59,521 nucleotides of DNA, taken from the NCBI GenBank assembly GCA_020853135.1, contig JADYZO010000029.1:1-59521 (forward strand), read 5' to 3'. Of this stretch, positions 49,828 through 59,521 are shown piece after piece (the stretch's first letter is position 1; each line of letters opens with the position of its first letter). Source of the stretch: Gammaproteobacteria bacterium (GTDB lineage: Bacteria; Pseudomonadota; Gammaproteobacteria; Steroidobacterales; GCA-2729495). The translations under genes were made by a program, and so were the position numbers. Below the pieces are notes generated by a model. It saw only the letters and a list, made by a program, of their open reading frames with translations. It was not told where the DNA came from and searched no databases.

Positions 49828-50838
49828 ATGTCGGGCATCATCCTGGCGGGCAGCATCGTCATCCTGGCCGTCGCATTGGCCGTCGCCTGGACCCTTGCCA
49901 GGCGGCGGCGCAAGCGCCGGCAGTCAAGCAAGGCTTGTCAGTGGTCGATCGGCATCCTGTCAGGGCGCGACCCCCTGGCCCTGCAAGAGCACCCGGATCA
50001 TCCCAACCCGCGCTTCACGGTGGCGGACATCCCGGGCAACCAGTACCTGATGGTGGCCGATCCCTTCCTCGTCCAGGACGAGGGGCGCTGGCTGCTGTTT
50101 TTCGAGATGCTCAACCGCGGGAGCCGGCTCGGCGAGATCGGCGTCGCCACGAGCAGCGATGGCTGGCACTGGTCCCATGCGGGCACGGCGTTGCGGGAAC
50201 CCTTCCATCTCTCGTACCCGCAGGTGTTCCGGCACGCGGGCGGGTATTTCATGATCCCGGAGTCGCGCAAGGCCCGCGAGGTACGCCTGTATCGCGCACT
50301 GGACTTCCCGCTGCGCTGGACGCTCGACCGCGTGCTGTTCACCGGCAACTACAGCGACCCGACGATACTCTCCTGGCAGGACCGGTGGTGGATTTTCGCG
50401 ACCCGGCACCCGCGCGGCATGGAGATCTGGTCCGCCGATGAACTGCGGGGCGAATGGCGGCCACATCCCGGCAATCCCGTTTACCGCTACCACAAGAGCG
50501 CCGCGCGCAATGGCGGCCGGCCGGTGGTGGCCGATGGCCGGATCCTGCGGTTTGCGCAGGATGCGAGGGGCGGCTATGGCAACGCGCTGCGTGCCTTTGC
50601 CATCGATGTGCTCGATGAAGCGCGGTTCAGGGAACACCCGCTCGAACCCGATCCGTTCCTCGCCCCGCATGGCAACGGCTGGGCCTGCGCAGCCATGCAC
50701 CACTGTTCGCCGGTCCTGACCGCCTCGGGAACCTGGCTGGCCGCCGTCGACGGCTGCGGGCTGTGGGATCGGGCGGCGCAGGCCGGCGATGCGGCCGCGC
50801 TCAGCGCGTCCGGGCACCGGAGCGATACGCCTGGCTGA
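49828..50838 (+). CDS. Membrane-anchored beta-propeller protein, GH43/GINT1-like
   Basis: A 336-residue protein with an N-terminal membrane anchor (about 3-23) and a basic stop-transfer RRRRKRR. A repetitive five-bladed-propeller-like body follows: VADPFLVQDEGRWLLFFEM, IGVATSSDGWHWSH, SYPQVFRHAGGYFMIPES, YSDPTILSWQDRWWIFAT. The ADPFL...LFFE repeats are typical of proteins related to GH43-like and GINT1-type glycan enzymes found in polysaccharide loci (family knowledge). Whether it is a hydrolase, transferase or binding protein is unknown. Its end overlaps the convergent urea transporter by 38 bases, and the last 20 residues look non-conserved. Confidence 0.75.
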   Translation: MSGIILAGSIVILAVALAVAWTLARRRRKRRQSSKACQWSIGILSGRDPLALQEHPDHPNPRFTVADIPGNQYLMVADPFLVQDEGRWLLFFEMLNRGSRLGEIGVATSSDGWHWSHAGTALREPFHLSYPQVFRHAGGYFMIPESRKAREVRLYRALDFPLRWTLDRVLFTGNYSDPTILSWQDRWWIFATRHPRGMEIWSADELRGEWRPHPGNPVYRYHKSAARNGGRPVVADGRILRFAQDARGGYGNALRAFAIDVLDEARFREHPLEPDPFLAPHGNGWACAAMHHCSPVLTASGTWLAAVDGCGLWDRAAQAGDAAALSASGHRSDTPG

Positions 50839-51655
50839 CCACCCAGGTCGACAGGACAAAGGGTGCGGTGAGGGCCGGGAACCCGGCCAGCTGAAACGCA
50901 CGGACGAGCAGCGTCGAGAGCACGATTCCCGCGAGCGGTGCCGCGACATTGCCACGGTACCGGTCACCGAGCGCGATGCCGGCCAGTGCGCCGTTGAAGC
51001 CATGGATGCCCGCCCCGGACAGGTGTTCCGGAAAGCCCAGGCTGCGCGCGGTCACCAGCCCGAGCGCGGAGCCGATCAGCGCCCAGGCCGCCGCCTGGCG
51101 GGAATGCAGCGCGAGGCCGATCGTGAACAGCAGCCCCGCCAGCCAGCTGTCCTGGAACATCACCTGCCCGATGCCACGCAGGACCGCCGGCAGTTCCCCT
51201 GCCGGCAGCGGTGCCCCCGCAGCGGCAGCGGGCGGCAGGCCGGCAACCCCGGCAATCGCCAGCATCACCCAGCCAGTCAGCACGAATGGCGCGGTATAGG
51301 GTGGCAGCGCCGGCACCCGGCGACGCATCGCTTCCATGAGCAGGGTGGAGGCCGCACCGCCCAGCACGATGAGCCCGATGGACAGCAGCCCGGGCGGATG
51401 GAACGCCAGCATGGCGATCCCCACGAGGGCCGCGTTGAAGCCGTGGAGCCCGCGCGCGGTGCCATCTGCGGACAGGCCCGCCAGGCGGGCCGCCACCACG
51501 CCCGCCGCCGCGCCGAGGATGGCGCCCGAGGCCATCGCAACCGAACCGGCGAACAGCCCGGCGAGGAACAGCACGCCGGTGGGCGCGCTCTCCTGCAGCA
51601 TGACCTGGCCGAATCCGCGCAGGAAAGAGATCAGTTGCTGTTTCGCTGCAGGCAT
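50801..51655 (-). CDS. Urea transporter (UT family)
   Basis: A 284-residue inner-membrane protein with two homologous halves, each starting with a GxGQVM motif (GFGQVMLQESAPTGVLF and GIGQVMFQDSWLAGLLF) and later a HGFNAALVGIA / HGFNGALAGIA signature. This is the pseudo-twofold UT channel of vertebrate UT and bacterial Yut types. It would let urea pass down its gradient. No urease or urea carboxylase genes are nearby. The ATG at 51655 places the first motif near the N-terminus. It ends inside the 3' end of the beta-propeller gene. Confidence 0.87.
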   Translation of the reverse strand: MPAAKQQLISFLRGFGQVMLQESAPTGVLFLAGLFAGSVAMASGAILGAAAGVVAARLAGLSADGTARGLHGFNAALVGIAMLAFHPPGLLSIGLIVLGGAASTLLMEAMRRRVPALPPYTAPFVLTGWVMLAIAGVAGLPPAAAAGAPLPAGELPAVLRGIGQVMFQDSWLAGLLFTIGLALHSRQAAAWALIGSALGLVTARSLGFPEHLSGAGIHGFNGALAGIALGDRYRGNVAAPLAGIVLSTLLVRAFQLAGFPALTAPFVLSTWVVSQAYRSGARTR

Positions 51656-51696
51656 CGGGCTGCGCTGCCGGGCCTGCCGCCCGGCACCCGCGGGTC

Positions 51697-52263
51697 TCAG
51701 GTCCGCGGCAGGGTGACGCCGCGCTGGCCCTGGTACTTGCCGCCGCGGTCCTTGTAGGAGGTCTCGCAGGGCTCGTCGGACTCGAAGAAGATCATCTGCG
51801 CCACGCCCTCGTTGGCATAGATCCGGGCCGGCAGCGGCGTGGTGTTGGAGAACTCCAGCGTCACGTGGCCCTCCCACTCGGGCTCCAGCGGCGTCACGTT
51901 GACGATGATCCCGCAGCGCGCGTAGGTGGACTTGCCGAGGCAGATGGTGAGCACGTTGCGCGGGATGCGGAAGTACTCCACCGTGGCGGCGAGCGCGAAG
52001 GAATTCGGCGGGATGATGCACACCGCGCCCTCCATGTCGACGAAGCTCGAGGGATCGAAGGCCTTCGGGTCGACGATGGTGGAGTTGATGTTGGTGAACA
52101 CCTTGAAGTGGCTGCCGCAACGGACGTCGTAGCCGTAGCTCGAGGTGCCGTAGGAGATCACCCGCTGGCCGCCCACCTCGCGCACCTGGCCGGCCTCGAA
52201 CGGCTCGATCATGCCGTGTTGCCCCGCCATGCGGCGGATCCAGCGGTCGGAGCGGATGGTCAT
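51697..52263 (-). CDS. dcd: dCTP deaminase
   Basis: Converts dCTP to dUTP for thymidylate synthesis. The 188-residue trimeric enzyme has [19 protein letters not shown] (110-128) and the catalytic Glu E137 in [13 protein letters not shown] tail QRGVTLPRT folds over the active site. The length matches family members (about 188-193). Its ATG overlaps the mrp stop (ATGA), giving an mrp-dcd operon as in Pseudomonas. Confidence 0.96.
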
Positions 52264-53354
52264 CTGCGTTCTTCGACGATGGGCGGGAACCGGTGTGCCT
52301 GTCCCTGCGGCCGGCCCGCCAGCGCCGCAGCCGCACGCAGCGCGATCTCGCGATAGCGGCGCGCGACCGGCCCGTCCGGTTCGGCCACCAGGGGCGGACG
52401 CCCGGCATCGGTCTGCGCCCGGATGGCGCTGTTGAGCGGCACCCTGCCGAGCAACGGCACCCCGCAGCTGGCCGCGAGCTGCTCGCCGCCACCCTCGCCG
52501 AAGAGGGACTCCTCGTGGCCGCACTTCGGGCAGATGAAGCTGCTCATGTTCTCGATGACGCCCAGTACCGGCACCCCGACCTTCTCGAACATCTTCAGGC
52601 CGCGCTGCGCCACTTCGGTCGCCAGTTGCTGCGGCGTCGTCACGATGAGCACACCGGCCAGCGGCACCTTCTGGCTCAGCGTGAGCTGGGTGTCGCCGGT
52701 GCCCGGCGGCAGGTCCACCAGCAGGTAGTCGAGGTCGTGCCAGTTGGTCTGGAAACCGAGCTGGGTGATCGCCTGCGTCACCATGGGACCACGCCAGATG
52801 ACCGGCGAGGCCTGATCGACAAGAAAACCGATGGAGATGACCTCCAGGCCGTGGGCCACGAGCGGCTCGAAGGTCTTGCCGTCGCGGCTCTCCGGCTTCT
52901 GTCCCAGCAGACCCAGCATCCGCGGCTGGCTGGGCCCGTAGACATCCGCGTCCAGGATGCCGACGCGCGCACCCTCGGCTGCCAGCGCCAGCGCCAGGTT
53001 CACCGTGACCGTGGACTTGCCGACGCCGCCCTTGCCGGAGGCCACGGCAATGACGTTGCGGACCTTCTGCATGGAGGGCAGGTTGCCCTGCGGCCGGTGG
53101 GCGATGATGGCCGTCTCCACGCTGGCGCTCACCCGCGCGCCGGCATCGAGGGCATGCACCGCCTCCCCGATGGCGCGTGCCAGGGCTTCGCGCAGGCTGT
53201 CCACGGGAAGATCCAGGCGGAGGCGGACCGAAACGGCACCGCCATCGGCGGTGGCTTCCACCCGCGCGCCAAGCGACGCCAGATCAGCACCCAGTACGGG
53301 CAAGGCAATGGCTGCTACGGCCCGCTCGATGGCGGGTACGGTCAGATCCGGCAT
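52260..53354 (-). CDS. mrp: Mrp/ApbC iron-sulfur cluster carrier ATPase
   Basis: A P-loop NTPase that carries Fe-S clusters to apoproteins. The 364-residue protein has an N-terminal MIP18/DUF59-like domain (1-90), then the deviant Walker [11 protein letters not shown] (106-115), [21 protein letters not shown] and the cluster-binding CPKC (275-278). Length and order are normal. In E. coli and Pseudomonas mrp stands divergently next to metG; here a 4.6-kb module separates them. Confidence 0.95.
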
Positions 53355-53585: not shown

Positions 53586-55964
53586 ATGAAGTTCATCAGC
53601 ACGTTGAAAGCCGAGCGCTCCATCGCCCAGCTGCTGGCCGAGCGCGACATGGCCGCGCCCATGGCACGCAAGGCGATGGACAGCCTGCGCCGGATCGGCC
53701 CCACCGCCATCCCGAAGCTGATCGAGGCCTTCGCCACCGCCGACCGGGAGCACGTGCCGGCCCTCGTGCAGTCGCTGGCAGCGCACGTCAGCGAGCGCAC
53801 CCTCAAGGAGGTCGCCGCCGGGCTCGCCAACGGCAACGCACGCTGCGTCTCCGGCGTCGCCGCCGCGCTGGCCGCCGCCACGGGCTACGACCCCAACGCG
53901 CTGCTGGCCTACCTTGGCCGTGACGACATCGCCGTCTCCGCCCTGATCGAGGTGCTGCGCGCCACCCGCCAGCGGCTCAATGCCCGGGAACTGCTGCGCC
54001 GGGCCTACGACCTCGAGCCGCGCGAGAAGGCCGCGGTGTTCAGGCTCATCGGCGAGATCGCCACCCCCGACCTGGTGCCCGAACTGCTCAACCGCCTCGA
54101 GGGCAAGGATCCCTCCGCGCGGGTGCACATCATCGAAGTGCTCTCGCGCTTCAACACCCCGGAGGTCGGGCGCGCCCTGGAAGGGCAGCTCAAGGACCGG
54201 AACAAGGCGGTCCGCAAGGCCGCCCTGCTCGCCATCGAGAACATGCCCGGCGAGCGCAACGTGGCCCTGCTCTGCGCCATGCTCCAGGACGCGGACCTCG
54301 AGACCCGCGGCAGGGCCATCGACCTCGTGGTCAGGGCCCAGCACCCGGACACGATGAAGCACCTGGTCGACGTCCTGCGCCATGAGTCCGAGGATGCGCG
54401 CCGCGCCGCCGTCGAGGTCCTCAACGGCATCGCCGATGCGGCGACCATCAAGTACCTGCTCGCCGCCCTCGAGGACAGCGACTGGTGGGTGCGCTCGCGC
54501 GCCGCCGACGCGCTCGGCAAGATCGGCGGGCCGAAGGTGATGGATGCGGTCCTGCAGCTGGTGCGCGACCCGAACGAGAACATCCGCCGGGCCGCCATCG
54601 AGATCCTCAACCAGACGAAGGACCAGCGTGCGGTGGAGCACCTCATGGCGGCCACCGAGGACAAGGACTGGTGGGTGCGCGAGCGCGCCGCCGACGCGCT
54701 CGCCGAGATCGGCAGCACGCGGGCGCTGCCCGCACTGGTGAAGATGCTCGGTGGTGACGTGCGCTCGGCGCCCGCCGCGGTGCGGGCGCTCGGCCGTCTG
54801 GGTGACTCGCAGGTCATGGCGACGCTGATGCCGCTGCTCGACCATGTCGACAAGGCCATCCGGCTCGAGGCGGTGGCCGCCGTGTCCCGCCTGGCCGACC
54901 ACCACAGCGCCGCCACGGTGAAGGCCCGGCTGCAGCCCTTCATGGCGGGCGCCGACGAAACCATCGCCAGGGCAGCCGCCGATGCCGTCGCCAAGCTGGA
55001 CAACCGCTTCTCCACCACCGCGGTGGAGGCCGCCGACCGTCAGGAGCGCAATGCCTCGCCCGCCCACACCCTGCTGGTGGAACCCGCCGAGGTGGAGCGC
55101 ATCGTGCGCGAGGCCGAAGGCGCGCAGAGACTCGACATCAGCCTGCTCAACCAGGGCGACATGATCGAGAGCCGCTACCGCTACATCCAGAAGATCGGCA
55201 AGGGCGCATTCGGCACCGTGGTCCTGGTGGAGGACATGGTGGTGGACGAGCGGCTCATCCTCAAGTTCCTCAACCCCAACGTCAGCCAGGACGAGGAGAT
55301 GATGAAGCGCTTCGTCCACGAGCTGCGGTACTCGCGCAAGATCACGCACAACAACGTGATCCGCATCTACGACTTCCTCAACCTGGGCGGCAACTACGCC
55401 ATCTCGATGGAGTATTTCCCCTCGCACACCCTGGGCGCGGAAATCAGCAAGACGAAACCACTGCCCTTCGACAAGACGCGCGGCTGGTCGATCGACATCG
55501 CCACCGGCATGGCCGTGGCCCACCAGGTGGGCATCGTGCACCGGGACCTCAAGCCCGCGAACATCCTCATCAACGACGAGGGCCTGCTGAAGATCGTGGA
55601 CTTCGGCGTGGCCGCCGTCGCCTCGCACGCCGACACGCAGCTCACCAAGACCGGCTACGTGATCGGCTCGCCGAAGTACATGGCGCCCGAGCAGATCCTC
55701 GGCAAGAAAGTCGATCACCGCGCCGACATCTACAGCCTCGGCGTGATCATGTACGAGATGCTGGCGGGCGTGCCGCCCTACTCCAAGGGTGACCACATGT
55801 CCGTCATGTACCAGCATGTGCAGGGCAAGTGCCGGCCCTGCGAGGAAATCAACCCGGAGATCCCGGCGGGACTGGCCGCCGTGGTGCGCAAGGCCATGGA
55901 GATCGACAAGATGAAGCGCCACGAGTCCATGGATGAACTGCGCGCCGCCGTGCAGGCGGCCTAG
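53586..55964 (+). CDS. HEAT-repeat / Ser-Thr protein kinase fusion
   Basis: A 792-residue cytoplasmic protein with no signal or membrane segment. Residues about 25-475 are tandem HEAT/PBS-lyase-like repeats; two are nearly identical around DSDWWVRSRAADALGKIG (297-314) and DKDWWVRERAADALAEIG (359-376). A linker (475-528) leads to a full eukaryotic-type kinase: glycine loop G538-K-G-A-F-G543, Lys K560, helix-C E579, HRDLKPAN (652-659), DFG (672-674) and APE (700-702). All catalytic residues are present, so it should be active. HEAT arrays usually bind partners. pilT-like genes follow 14 bases later, pointing to control of pilus motors (inference). Confidence 0.9.
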   Translation: MKFISTLKAERSIAQLLAERDMAAPMARKAMDSLRRIGPTAIPKLIEAFATADREHVPALVQSLAAHVSERTLKEVAAGLANGNARCVSGVAAALAAATGYDPNALLAYLGRDDIAVSALIEVLRATRQRLNARELLRRAYDLEPREKAAVFRLIGEIATPDLVPELLNRLEGKDPSARVHIIEVLSRFNTPEVGRALEGQLKDRNKAVRKAALLAIENMPGERNVALLCAMLQDADLETRGRAIDLVVRAQHPDTMKHLVDVLRHESEDARRAAVEVLNGIADAATIKYLLAALEDSDWWVRSRAADALGKIGGPKVMDAVLQLVRDPNENIRRAAIEILNQTKDQRAVEHLMAATEDKDWWVRERAADALAEIGSTRALPALVKMLGGDVRSAPAAVRALGRLGDSQVMATLMPLLDHVDKAIRLEAVAAVSRLADHHSAATVKARLQPFMAGADETIARAAADAVAKLDNRFSTTAVEAADRQERNASPAHTLLVEPAEVERIVREAEGAQRLDISLLNQGDMIESRYRYIQKIGKGAFGTVVLVEDMVVDERLILKFLNPNVSQDEEMMKRFVHELRYSRKITHNNVIRIYDFLNLGGNYAISMEYFPSHTLGAEISKTKPLPFDKTRGWSIDIATGMAVAHQVGIVHRDLKPANILINDEGLLKIVDFGVAAVASHADTQLTKTGYVIGSPKYMAPEQILGKKVDHRADIYSLGVIMYEMLAGVPPYSKGDHMSVMYQHVQGKCRPCEEINPEIPAGLAAVVRKAMEIDKMKRHESMDELRAAVQAA

Positions 55965-55978
55965 CCGGACCCGCTGCC

Positions 55979-57070
55979 GTGGCCCGCATCGATGCCTTCC
56001 TCAAGCTCGGCCTTGCCCAGGGCTGCTCCGACGTGCACCTGGCCGTCGGCGTGCCGCCCATGCTGCGCGTGCATGGCGACCTGATGCCCATCAAGTTCCG
56101 CGACCTCGGCGCCGCCGAGCTCGATGGCTATGTCGGCGAGATCCTCACGCCCGGCCAGCGGGAGCGCTTCGGCGCAGGCCGCGACGTGGACTTCTCCTAC
56201 GTGACCGAGGACGGCGGACGCTTCCGCGTCAACGTCTTCCGCAAGGAGACCGGTGTCGGCGCCACCTTCCGCTTCATCCCCGGCGACATTCCCCGGCTGG
56301 ACAAGCTGCACCTGCCGAAGGTTCTCCAGAAGCTCTGCGACCACCACCAGGGCATGATCCTGGTCACCGGCTCCACCGGTGCCGGCAAGTCCACCACGCT
56401 CGCGGCGATGATCGACCACCTCAACGGCACGCAGAACCTCAACATCATCAGCCTCGAGGACCCCATCGAGTTCCTGCACAAGAGCAAGCGCTCGCAGGTC
56501 GTGCAGCGCGAGCTCGGCACCCACCTGCCGAGCTTCGCCGAGGGCATCCGTGCGGCGCTGCGCCAGGACCCGGACGTCATCCTGGTCGGCGAGATGCGTG
56601 ATGCCGAGACCATCTCCATGGCGATGACCGCGGCGGAGACCGGCCACCTGGTGCTGGGCACGCTGCACACCACCGGCGCGGTCAAGACCATCGACCGCAT
56701 CATCGATGCCCTGCCCGGCGAGATGCGCGAGCAGACCAAGAGCTTCCTGTCGCAGAGCCTGCTGGCCGTCATCAGCCAGGTGCTGGTGAAGACACCCGAC
56801 AACCGCAGCCGGCGCGCCATCGTCGAGATCATGGTCATGAACCGCGCCATCGCCAAGCTCATCATGACCGACCAGACGCACCAGATCCCCTCGCAGCTGC
56901 AGATGGGCCGCGACCAGAGCATGCAGCTCATGGACCAGGCGCTGCTCGATGCCATCCAGCGCAAGGAAGTCGACCCGGACGACGCCTTCCGCTACGCCAC
57001 CGACAAGGGCCTGTTCACCCGCTTCGTAACCGACACGGCCATCCTGCCGAAATCCGATGTCACAGCCTGA
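55979..57070 (+). CDS. PilT-family pilus retraction ATPase (paralog 1)
   Basis: A hexameric motor ATPase of type IV pili. The 363-residue protein has an N-terminal PAS-like domain with SDVHLAVGVPPMLRVHG, Walker A GSTGAGKS (131-138), the Asp box LEDPIEF, Walker B VGEMRD (203-208) and the His box HTTGAVKTIDR (230-240). The C-terminal region that in PilT reads AIRNLIRE is RAIAKLIM here, so retraction function may be altered, as in PilU-like proteins. GTG start, no strong Shine-Dalgarno. Its end overlaps the next gene by 14 bases. It could be called PilU by position, but it is not clearly either. Confidence 0.88.
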   Translation: MARIDAFLKLGLAQGCSDVHLAVGVPPMLRVHGDLMPIKFRDLGAAELDGYVGEILTPGQRERFGAGRDVDFSYVTEDGGRFRVNVFRKETGVGATFRFIPGDIPRLDKLHLPKVLQKLCDHHQGMILVTGSTGAGKSTTLAAMIDHLNGTQNLNIISLEDPIEFLHKSKRSQVVQRELGTHLPSFAEGIRAALRQDPDVILVGEMRDAETISMAMTAAETGHLVLGTLHTTGAVKTIDRIIDALPGEMREQTKSFLSQSLLAVISQVLVKTPDNRSRRAIVEIMVMNRAIAKLIMTDQTHQIPSQLQMGRDQSMQLMDQALLDAIQRKEVDPDDAFRYATDKGLFTRFVTDTAILPKSDVTA

Positions 57071-58157
57071 CGCCACCGCCGGGCGGCCGGCGGCCAATGC
57101 CATCGACGGGTACCTGCGTGCAGTCACGGAGCGACGCGGCTCGGACCTGCACTTCATGGCCGGCGAACCCCCGCGCATGCGCCTGTACGGCGAACTGCAG
57201 CCGCTCGCCAATGAGCCGCTGGGCGTCGCCCGGGCCGAGGAGGTGCTGCTGCAGATCATGACGGCAGGCGCCCGGGCGGATTTCGCGAAGCGGGACTCCA
57301 CCGACTTCGCCTACAGCGTCGAGGGCGTGGCGCGCTTCCGGGTGAACATCTTCCGGCATGTCGGCGGCATGGGCGGGGTGTTCCGCACCATCCCCTCGCA
57401 GGCGAAGACGCTGAAGGACCTGGACCTGCCGCCCGTGCTGGCCACGCTGGCCCGCCAGCCGCAGGGCATGATCCTGGTCACCGGCAAGACCGGCTCGGGC
57501 AAGTCCACCACGCTCGCCGCCATCATCGACGAGATCAACAACCGCGAGGCGGGGCACATCCTCACCATCGAGGATCCCATCGAGTTCGTCCACCGCCGCA
57601 AGAAGTGCCTGATCAGCCAGCGCGAAGTGGGCCACCACACGCCGAGCTTCGCCGCTGCACTGACCTCGGCACTGCGCGAGGATCCCGACGTCATCCTGGT
57701 GGGCGAGATGCGCGACCTCGAGACCATCAGCATCGCGGTGACGGCCGCGGAAATGGGCATCCTGGTCATGGGCACCCTGCACACCAACGGGGCCGCGCAG
57801 ACGGTGGACCGGATCGTCAACTCCTTCCCGACCGACAAGCAGAACCACGTGCGCACCATGCTCTCCACCTCGCTGCGCGGGGTGATCTCCCAGCAGCTGG
57901 TGGCGCGCAGGGGCGAACCCGGGCTGGTGGCCGCGCTGGAGATCCTGGTCAACACGCCCGCCGTGGCCAACCTGATCCGCCAGGGCAAGCTCGACCAGCT
58001 GGAGAATGCCATGCAGGGCGGCCGGGCGGCCGGCATGAAGACCATGGACAGCTCGCTGCGCGAACTCTTCGACCGCGGCACCGTCACCGGACGCGCGGCC
58101 TACGAGTGCGCGCTCGACAAGAAGAAGTTCGAGGACGTGAAGGACCTCGCCAGCTGA
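57057..58157 (+). CDS. PilT-family pilus retraction ATPase (paralog 2)
   Basis: A 366-residue relative of the preceding gene. It carries SDLHFMAGEPPRMRLYG, Walker A GKTGSGKS (143-150), IEDPIEFVH, Walker B VGEMRD (215-220), His box HTNGAAQTVDR (242-252) and AVANLIRQ (302-309), close to the PilT AIRNLIRE motif. It is more PilT-like than paralog 1. The two could form hetero-hexamers or a PilT/PilU-type pair. The start overlaps the previous gene's 3' end by 14 bases, so the stoichiometry is coupled. No pilin or other pilus assembly genes are in the window. Confidence 0.9.
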   Translation: MSQPDATAGRPAANAIDGYLRAVTERRGSDLHFMAGEPPRMRLYGELQPLANEPLGVARAEEVLLQIMTAGARADFAKRDSTDFAYSVEGVARFRVNIFRHVGGMGGVFRTIPSQAKTLKDLDLPPVLATLARQPQGMILVTGKTGSGKSTTLAAIIDEINNREAGHILTIEDPIEFVHRRKKCLISQREVGHHTPSFAAALTSALREDPDVILVGEMRDLETISIAVTAAEMGILVMGTLHTNGAAQTVDRIVNSFPTDKQNHVRTMLSTSLRGVISQQLVARRGEPGLVAALEILVNTPAVANLIRQGKLDQLENAMQGGRAAGMKTMDSSLRELFDRGTVTGRAAYECALDKKKFEDVKDLAS

Positions 58158-58250: not shown

Positions 58251-59521
58251 ATGTCCACCGCCCCCAGAAAGATCTTGGTCACCAGCGCCCTGCCCTACGC
58301 CAACAACTCCATCCACATGGGGCACCTGGTGGAGTACATCCAGACCGACATCTGGGTGCGGTTCCAGAAGCTCACGGGCAACAGCTGCCTGTACCTCTGC
58401 GCCAGCGACGCCCACGGCACGCCCATCATGCTCAAGGCGCAGGAACTCGGCGTGACGCCCGAGGCGCTGGTGGAGCGGTTCCGCGCGGAGCACCTGCGCG
58501 ACTTCCAGCGCTTCCACATCGAGTTCGACAACTACCACACCACGCATTCGGCGGAGAACCGGGCGCTGGTGGAGGCCCTCTACGCACGCCTGCGCGAGCG
58601 CGGCCTCGTCACCTGGCGCAGCATCCGCCAGGCCTACGACGCGCAGGCCAACCTGTTCCTGCCCGACCGCTTCATCCGCGGCACCTGCCCGGTGTGCGGG
58701 GCGCAGGACCAGTACGGCGACAGCTGCGAGGCCTGCGGCGCCACCTACTCGCCGACGGACCTCATCGACGCACGCTCGGTGGTCACGGGCACCGCACCCG
58801 TGCAGCGCGATTCCGAGCACCTGTTCTTCCGCCTCGGCCAGTTCGAGGACTCGCTGCGCCGCTGGACGGCGGGCGGCCACCTCGACCCGAGCGTGACCCG
58901 CAAGCTGGAGGAGTGGTTCGCCGCCGGCCTGAAGGACTGGGACATCTCCCGCGACGCCCCGTACTTCGGCTTTCGCATCCCGGACACCGCGGACAAGTAC
59001 TTCTATGTCTGGCTGGATGCCCCGGTGGGCTACATGGCGAGCTTCCTGAACCTGCAGGAGAAGCGCAAAAATTCACCACAAGAAATTGATTTTCAACAGT
59101 ATTGGTCTGAAGGCAGCACGGCGGAGCTGTATCACTTCATCGGCAAGGACATCGCCTACTTCCACACGCTGTTCTGGCCGGCCGTGCTGGAGGGTGGTGG
59201 CTACCGCAAGCCGAGCGGCGTGTTCGTCCACGGCTTCCTCACGGTCAACGGCCAGAAGATGTCGAAGTCCCGCGGCACGTTCATTTCCGCGGCGGCCTAC
59301 CTCGAACACCTGGATCCCGAGTACCTGCGCTACTACTACGCCTGCAAGCTCGGCCCGGGCACCGAGGACATCGACCTCAACCTCGAGGACTTCATCGCCC
59401 GCGTGAACGCCGACCTGGTCGGCAAGTTCGCCAACATCGCCAGCCGCTGCGCGGGCTTCATCAGCCGCCTGTCGGGCGGGAAGCTCGCCGCTGCGCTCGG
59501 CAACAGCAGCCTGTTCGCCGA
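58251..59521 (+). CDS. metG: Methionyl-tRNA synthetase (partial, 3' end outside)
   Basis: A class I synthetase charging initiator and elongator tRNA-Met. The window holds about 423 residues. HIGH-type HMGH is at 22-25 ([13 protein letters not shown]), the zinc knuckle uses C146, C149, C159 and C162, and KMSKS is at 336-340. The long form with four cysteines is the E. coli-like type. Codons for residues 273-287 (59067-59111) are strikingly AT-rich against the rest of the gene, though the frame is intact and the region is a variable loop in the family. The C-terminal domains lie beyond the window. Confidence 0.96.

Follow-up and report, generated by a model that had tools for sequence, protein, structure and literature searches.

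A HEAT-repeat Ser/Thr kinase and two PilT-family ATPases encoded as an old, jointly inherited gene unit: a possible phospho-signalling module for accessory pilus motors

Organisation of the locus

The stretch of DNA analysed here (the window) comprises 59,521 nucleotides of contig JADYZO010000029.1 from the gammaproteobacterial assembly GCA_020853135.1. Near its right end, three genes encode a Ser/Thr kinase with an N-terminal HEAT-repeat array and two PilT-family ATPases, here called PilT1 and PilT2; the three genes together are referred to as the module. The initial annotation of the window, made from the letters alone, had described such a kinase fusion and, beginning 14 bases further on, a pair of overlapping PilT-family genes on the same strand, and the reading frames, strand and coordinates are all as claimed: 14 bases separate the kinase stop from the PilT1 start, and the PilT1 and PilT2 genes overlap by 14 bases. 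Ratios of nonsynonymous to synonymous substitution (dN/dS) of 0.10-0.24 between the window's three genes and five relatives fit purifying selection on all three. The features of the locus are:

53586..55964, + strand: KIN, a HEAT-repeat/Hanks-type Ser/Thr kinase of 792 amino acids (Pfam and hydropathy)
54276..54755, + strand: conserved HEAT segment of KIN, residues 231-390, a candidate docking surface (alignment identity)
55161..55961, + strand: protein kinase domain, residues 526-792, with activation-loop T687 and T689
55979..57070, + strand: PilT1, a PilT-family ATPase of 363 amino acids with a GTG start, forming its own clade and having complete ATPase motifs
57008..57067, + strand: C-terminal tail of PilT1, residues 344-363, of the RFVTD..LLP type, with candidate phosphosite T351
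57057..58157, + strand: PilT2, a second PilT-family ATPase, of 366 amino acids, forming its own clade, with the first His-box His replaced by Ile/Val
52260..53354, - strand: mrp, context outside the module
58251..59519, + strand: metG, context outside the module, running off the window

Conservation of the unit

The three genes are an old unit and have been inherited together. Scanning with the kinase protein as query turned up 33 loci, with 49-87% identity in the best segment, most of them in metagenome-assembled genomes titled Gammaproteobacteria, Proteobacteria, Steroidobacteraceae, Chromatiales, Nevskiales or Lysobacterales; the one isolate with a species name is Povalibacter uvarum DSM 26723 (L022). 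PilT1 comes next after the kinase in 28 of the 29 loci with downstream sequence (one of these PilT1 genes being cut by a contig end), and PilT2 comes next after PilT1 in all 27 loci where this position is visible. Among 274 sampled genomes of the window's class (presumably Gammaproteobacteria, as the named relatives suggest), some of which may also be among the 33 scan loci, a kinase profile identified 32 positive genomes and a PilT1 profile 35, including all 32, and these 35 carriers span 23 family labels. The kinase and PilT1 genes are adjacent and on the same strand in 33 of 34 judgeable genomes; adjacency in G186 could not be judged because the kinase runs to the contig end. A phylum-wide sample yielded no further carrier, the single positive among its 299 genomes being the window genome itself.

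Scarce co-occurrence, or a kinase often found without pilT genes, had been named at the outset as grounds for abandoning a functional link. On the genomic side the link withstood this test: PilT1 was found in every one of the 32 kinase-positive genomes. The exceptions to the arrangement are G163 and L038, which are considered below. Three genomes that seemed to have PilT1 without the kinase (G035, G197 and G209) were rejected as such cases, since in each the region around PilT1 has the kinase gene immediately before it. In G209 (L107 4836-6325) the kinase frame is split into two open reading frames while both pilT genes are open, by decay or an assembly error.

Trees of the kinase, PilT1 and PilT2 agree over 48 loci (Mantel r 0.925, 0.942 and 0.908, with none of 2000 permutations as high), sharing 31-33 of 45 splits and having no conflicts at a support of at least 0.95.

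The kinase

Pfam places five HEAT_2 stretches in the N-terminal part of the kinase and Pkinase at residues 531-780. Combined with a predicted model, whose pTM of 0.48 makes it useful for domain layout only, this gives a HEAT solenoid that starts at residue 1 and ends near residue 475, and a kinase domain at about 528-790, with a low-confidence linker between them. No membrane span is indicated by hydropathy (maximum 1.33 over 19 residues). The expectation that all catalytic residues would be present was borne out. K560, E579, the HRD motif at 652-654, K656, N659, D672, G674, E702 and the activation-loop residue T687 are invariant in all 48 aligned kinases, so that each has the Hanks-type set of Lys, Glu, HRD, the D and G of DFG and the E of APE; the departures are at the APE Ala (present in 44/48) and the third glycine-loop Gly (46/48). 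The second activation-loop position, T689, is Thr in 43 kinases and Ser in the other 5.

Within the HEAT array, residues 231-390 show 61% mean pairwise identity, against 62% for the kinase domain and 31-39% for the other HEAT segments, and contain two invariant Trp-Trp pairs (300-301 and 362-363). Because this segment is as conserved as the kinase domain, it is plausible that the array docks a partner.

Sequence and fold searches both place the kinase domain nearest to PknB-type kinases. Its best fold match is PknB crystallised with its substrate, which we take to be the FHA protein GarA. The model for PASTA kinases of the PknB/Stk1 type (NF033483) scores 265 bits, below its cut-off of 450, and matches the kinase domain alone; Pfam finds no PASTA domain in the protein.

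PADLOC kinase models, PD-T4-6 among them, also match the kinase domain, and this could be taken to mean that the kinase is an anti-phage factor, with the PilTs guarding the pilus as a phage receptor. Such a role seems highly improbable. The best 25 of 35 PADLOC matches fall on the kinase domain and linker and none of these on the HEAT array, so that no full-length match to PD-T4-6/MADS defence was obtained; no defence-like gene is found among the recurrent annotated neighbours; and the congruent trees point to vertical inheritance.

Two subfamilies of PilT-type ATPase

The two module ATPases score 412.5 and 444 bits against TIGR01420, the PilT/PilU family model, above its cut-off of 319.1 bits. 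In all 37 PilT1 sequences the Walker A Lys, the Walker B Glu, the Asp box and both His-box histidines are present, whereas in all 36 PilT2 sequences the first His-box His is Ile or Val and the remaining ATPase residues are kept. PilT1 and PilT2 are each monophyletic (support 0.855 and 0.996, respectively) in a tree that also took in 31 sequences of canonical PilT and PilU-like proteins, drawn from the window genome and ten others. The AIRNLIRE motif, found in 11/11 canonical PilTs, is absent from all PilT1 and PilT2 sequences and from 20/20 PilU-like sequences. By tree, and against canonical PilT by motif as well, the module ATPases are orthologues of neither canonical PilT nor canonical PilU. 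PilT1 has in addition a conserved C-terminal tail that was not found in the 11 canonical PilTs. The tail is unstructured in a predicted model (tail pLDDT <50, overall pLDDT 71), and at its position 351 Thr (29 sequences) predominates over Ser (5), Ala (2) and Asn (1).

The window genome is a 2.56 Mb draft in 160 contigs, estimated to be 94% complete. On its contig C5 (L078, 4922-8383), canonical pilT and pilU and, after them in the same orientation, another PilU-like gene lie next to yggS, the position that the initial annotation had given for canonical pilT/pilU loci; in E. coli K-12 the PilT-like yggR is likewise beside yggS. Since canonical pilT/pilU are present elsewhere in the window genome, the module ATPases are extra and are not, as might have been assumed from the window, the cell's sole PilT/PilU set. 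Canonical pilT is retained in 7/7 module genomes examined. That PilT1 and PilT2 are relocated canonical pilT/pilU was rejected: they form separate clades and the canonical genes are still present. Three tandem PilT-family genes at the canonical locus are also seen in G044, G056, G127, G167 and G263.

According to the cited passages of Adams et al. (PMC6762196), the pair of His-box histidines is required, and PilU functions only together with PilT. By analogy, PilT1 and PilT2 may be helpers rather than stand-alone motors.

Recurrent neighbours

Neighbouring genes were counted in 26 module genomes other than the window genome, over regions of up to 20 kb, some of them shortened by the end of a contig. 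In 20/26, the gene directly upstream of the kinase on the same strand encodes a weakly DUF6812-like protein of about 155 residues. When 16 module genomes and 9 others were searched for this protein, 10 of the former and none of the latter had it; it was not found in the window genome, and a search of solved structures gave nothing credible for it. An FHA protein follows PilT2 in 12/26, and PP2C phosphatases (7/26; one was scanned and exceeds the Stp1 cut-off), FHA-GAF-HD-GYP proteins (6/26), adenylate cyclase-FHA proteins (5/26) and PAS-GGDEF-EAL proteins above 60 bits (7/26, two being weak part matches) also recur. In G055 (L104 14457-16250) the gene after the FHA gene encodes a distant Mrp relative, with 29% identity over 238 residues.

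Across the 25 genomes covered by the FHA search, proteins scoring above 330 bits occur exclusively beside the module, while weaker relatives, including that of the window genome, are found also in genomes that lack it. All 14 module FHA proteins contain the motif EPTMF, which we take to resemble the phosphoacceptor motif of GarA and OdhI. The recurrence of FHA, PP2C and cyclic-nucleotide genes supports a phospho-signalling role for the module.

A model for the module

The reading that we favour, at slightly short of an even chance and on the strength of sequence comparisons, is that the module is a Ser/Thr phospho-signalling unit around two accessory PilT-type motors. The HEAT segment 231-390 would hold the soluble kinase in place, either on a PilT hexamer or on a partner in the pilus machine, and the kinase would become active through phosphorylation of its own activation loop (T687/T689). 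It would then phosphorylate PilT1, the best guess for the site being the unstructured tail around T351, and also, where present, the FHA protein at the invariant EPTMF threonine. The phosphate mark would be read by FHA domains and taken off by PP2C, and the FHA-bearing HD-GYP and cyclase enzymes would relay it to cyclic di-GMP (c-di-GMP) or cyclic AMP (cAMP). As an output, the accessory motors may be altered in how they join or assist canonical PilT, much as PilU assists PilT, and this could change retraction or surface sensing.

A broader proposal, which we put forward more tentatively, is that a dedicated kinase-FHA-PP2C relay with its own PilT-type pair might give type IV pili a second gear, for retraction or for load sensing, coupled to both c-di-GMP and cAMP. 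Such a relay would be a bacterial counterpart, acting directly on the motor, of the phosphorylation network of the archaellum.

How bacteria time pilus retraction, and how they turn the state of the motor into a signal, is largely an open question. A fixed kinase-motor operon makes the control of retraction testable with few proteins and deletions, and it defines two PilT subfamilies that TIGR01420 does not separate from PilT and PilU. If the model is correct, type IV pilus motors join the machines that are under Ser/Thr kinase control.

The flow of information could in theory be reversed. PilT1 and PilT2 would then be sensors, with the HEAT array reading motor load or nucleotide state and the kinase conveying surface or load information through FHA proteins to the c-di-GMP and cAMP enzymes. 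This arrangement would suit two observations, namely that genes for FHA-linked HD-GYP and cyclase proteins adjoin the module and that PilT1 and PilT2 come in addition to canonical PilT/PilU; moreover, the lack of AIRNLIRE from both proteins and of one His-box His from PilT2 means that they may not be full motors. However, PilT1 retains Walker A, Walker B, the Asp box and both His-box residues, and the presumed output enzymes are found at a minority of the 26 loci. On balance we consider reversed flow unlikely.

Some findings sit poorly with a phospho-signalling unit for pilus motors. Three of the 37 PilT1s have Ala or Asn at the position of the candidate phosphosite T351. In the window genome, FHA and PP2C genes are not beside the module, and the best FHA relative sits on contig C146 with another kinase and PP2C. 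On this contig (L160, 1-4612) the genes of a CHASE2 sensor-kinase, a Stp1-type PP2C and an FHA protein adjoin one another on a single strand, and the cassette could be a source of phosphatase and reader for the module. G163 keeps both parts of the module but on different contigs, the kinase at L096 3949-6330 and the PilT1-PilT2 pair at L108 8002-10166, each with other open reading frames around it. In L038 the kinase has no adjacent pilT genes, and 3.1 kb of other genes stand in their place.

G163 and L038 show that the linkage can break, a point in favour of a shared operon without any functional link, in which the kinase and two duplicated pilT genes are merely co-inherited. We regard this as quite improbable, in view of co-retention over 23 families and at varied chromosomal sites, even in G163 where the genes have come apart, and of the congruent trees and purifying selection.

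The counts of pilus and secretion genes give a mixed answer as to the machine that the module serves. The window genome encodes PilB and PilM as well as the type II secretion ATPase GspE. At a threshold of 1e-180, PilB is found in 28 of 32 kinase-positive genomes and 174 of 242 others (P 0.085), but when all carriers are taken the figures are 29/35 and 173/239, with no significant enrichment (P 0.22). The other counts compare the 35 module genomes with 35 genomes of our own choosing, about every third from G001 to G114: PilM is found in 31/35 against 23/35 (P 0.044), and either PilB or PilM in 34/35 against 26/35 (P 0.013). GspE does about as well as PilM (29/35 against 19/35, P 0.019). All of these P values are optimistic because close relatives are not independent. 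Co-occurrence thus does not single out type IV pili, the machine of the initial annotation, over type II secretion, and the pilus reading is favoured because of the function of PilT proteins, not because of these counts.

Alternatively, the module might work for a different machine with ATPases of this fold, an MSHA-like pilus or a type II secretion system for example, rather than for a type IVa pilus. Besides the GspE counts, this is favoured by G044, which has the module and GspE but no PilB at the cut-off and carries type II secretion genes within 20 kb downstream of the module, and by G126, where GspE is within 15 kb of it. Yet PilM is present in 31/35 module genomes, G044 among them; in most module genomes GspE is distant from the module or encoded on a separate contig; and we know of no PilT in type II systems. 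We judge service to another machine to be improbable.

Relation to known systems

The initial annotation knew of no described system with this make-up, and none was found in the literature searched, for the most part at the level of titles and abstract openings; in particular, no description of a kinase-PilT operon came to light. Apparently, the parts and the style of control are known and the pairing with dedicated PilT subfamilies is undescribed.

GarA and OdhI are FHA substrates of PknB-type Hanks kinases. The module resembles such kinases and their PP2C partners in its kinase domain and in the Stp1-type PP2C and FHA neighbours of many relatives; it differs in the N-terminal HEAT array, in the lack of a PASTA match and of a predicted membrane span, and in having PilT ATPases as its constant partners. 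The threonine phosphorylation pathway of type VI secretion (PpkA, PppA, Fha1) places a kinase, a PP2C and an FHA protein on an envelope machine, although the machine is a different one and, to our knowledge, has neither HEAT array nor PilT. This pathway and the archaellum network are the nearest precedents.

In the Sulfolobus network (ArnA, ArnB, ArnC, ArnD, PP2A), kinases, a phosphatase and an FHA protein control a pilus-like motility machine (PMC7472852, PMC5300886). That system is archaeal and acts on archaellum components and their expression, and the cited passages mention no pairing with a retraction ATPase.

With the PilT/PilU retraction ATPases the module pair shares passage of the curated TIGR01420 cut-off and, apart from the first His-box His in PilT2, the ATPase motifs, and, as in pilTU (cited passages of PMC6762196), the two ATPase genes are in tandem. 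The module pair differs from canonical PilT/PilU in forming separate clades and in adjoining a kinase gene, not yggS; against canonical PilT, PilT1 has the extra C-terminal tail, PilT2 is one His-box His short and AIRNLIRE is missing. Accessory PilT paralogues, such as PilT2 of Neisseria and PilT1-4 of Geobacter, are extra ATPases beside the main PilT (PMC6762196, PMC5065972), and no kinase partner is mentioned for them in the passages cited.

Chromosomal site

Mrp and metG were said in the initial annotation to be divergent neighbours in E. coli and Pseudomonas, as is indeed seen in E. coli K-12, and the module to have been inserted between them. In the scan loci mrp is upstream in 30/33 and metG downstream in 25/33, those without one or the other all being cut by contig ends except L038. 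In L038 (3703-6828) the kinase is beside mrp and is followed by NUDIX-like and ferredoxin-like genes (named by eye) in place of the pilT genes. The mrp-metG bracket is kept in three class genomes of the same order (G000, G017 and G167) and in relatives titled, for example, Chromatiales, Lysobacterales and Nevskiales, and a recent local insertion was rejected on this account. In 24 other, more distant genomes, neither metG, dcd nor a close mrp was seen in the fetched regions, several of which are cut by contig ends. No insertion event is shown by these data; the site is conserved within the order and in the closer named relatives and is not general, the module lying elsewhere in distant genomes.

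In G044 the module lies after a rib-nusB-thiL-pgpA run and before gltX, and the genome, a single contig (L111 4771-9579, L094 7350-11939), has the module, canonical pilT/pilU, PilM and GspE. Within the window itself, next to dcd, a frame on the minus strand at 50801-51700 has two similar halves by eye and presumably encodes a membrane protein of the urea-transporter type.

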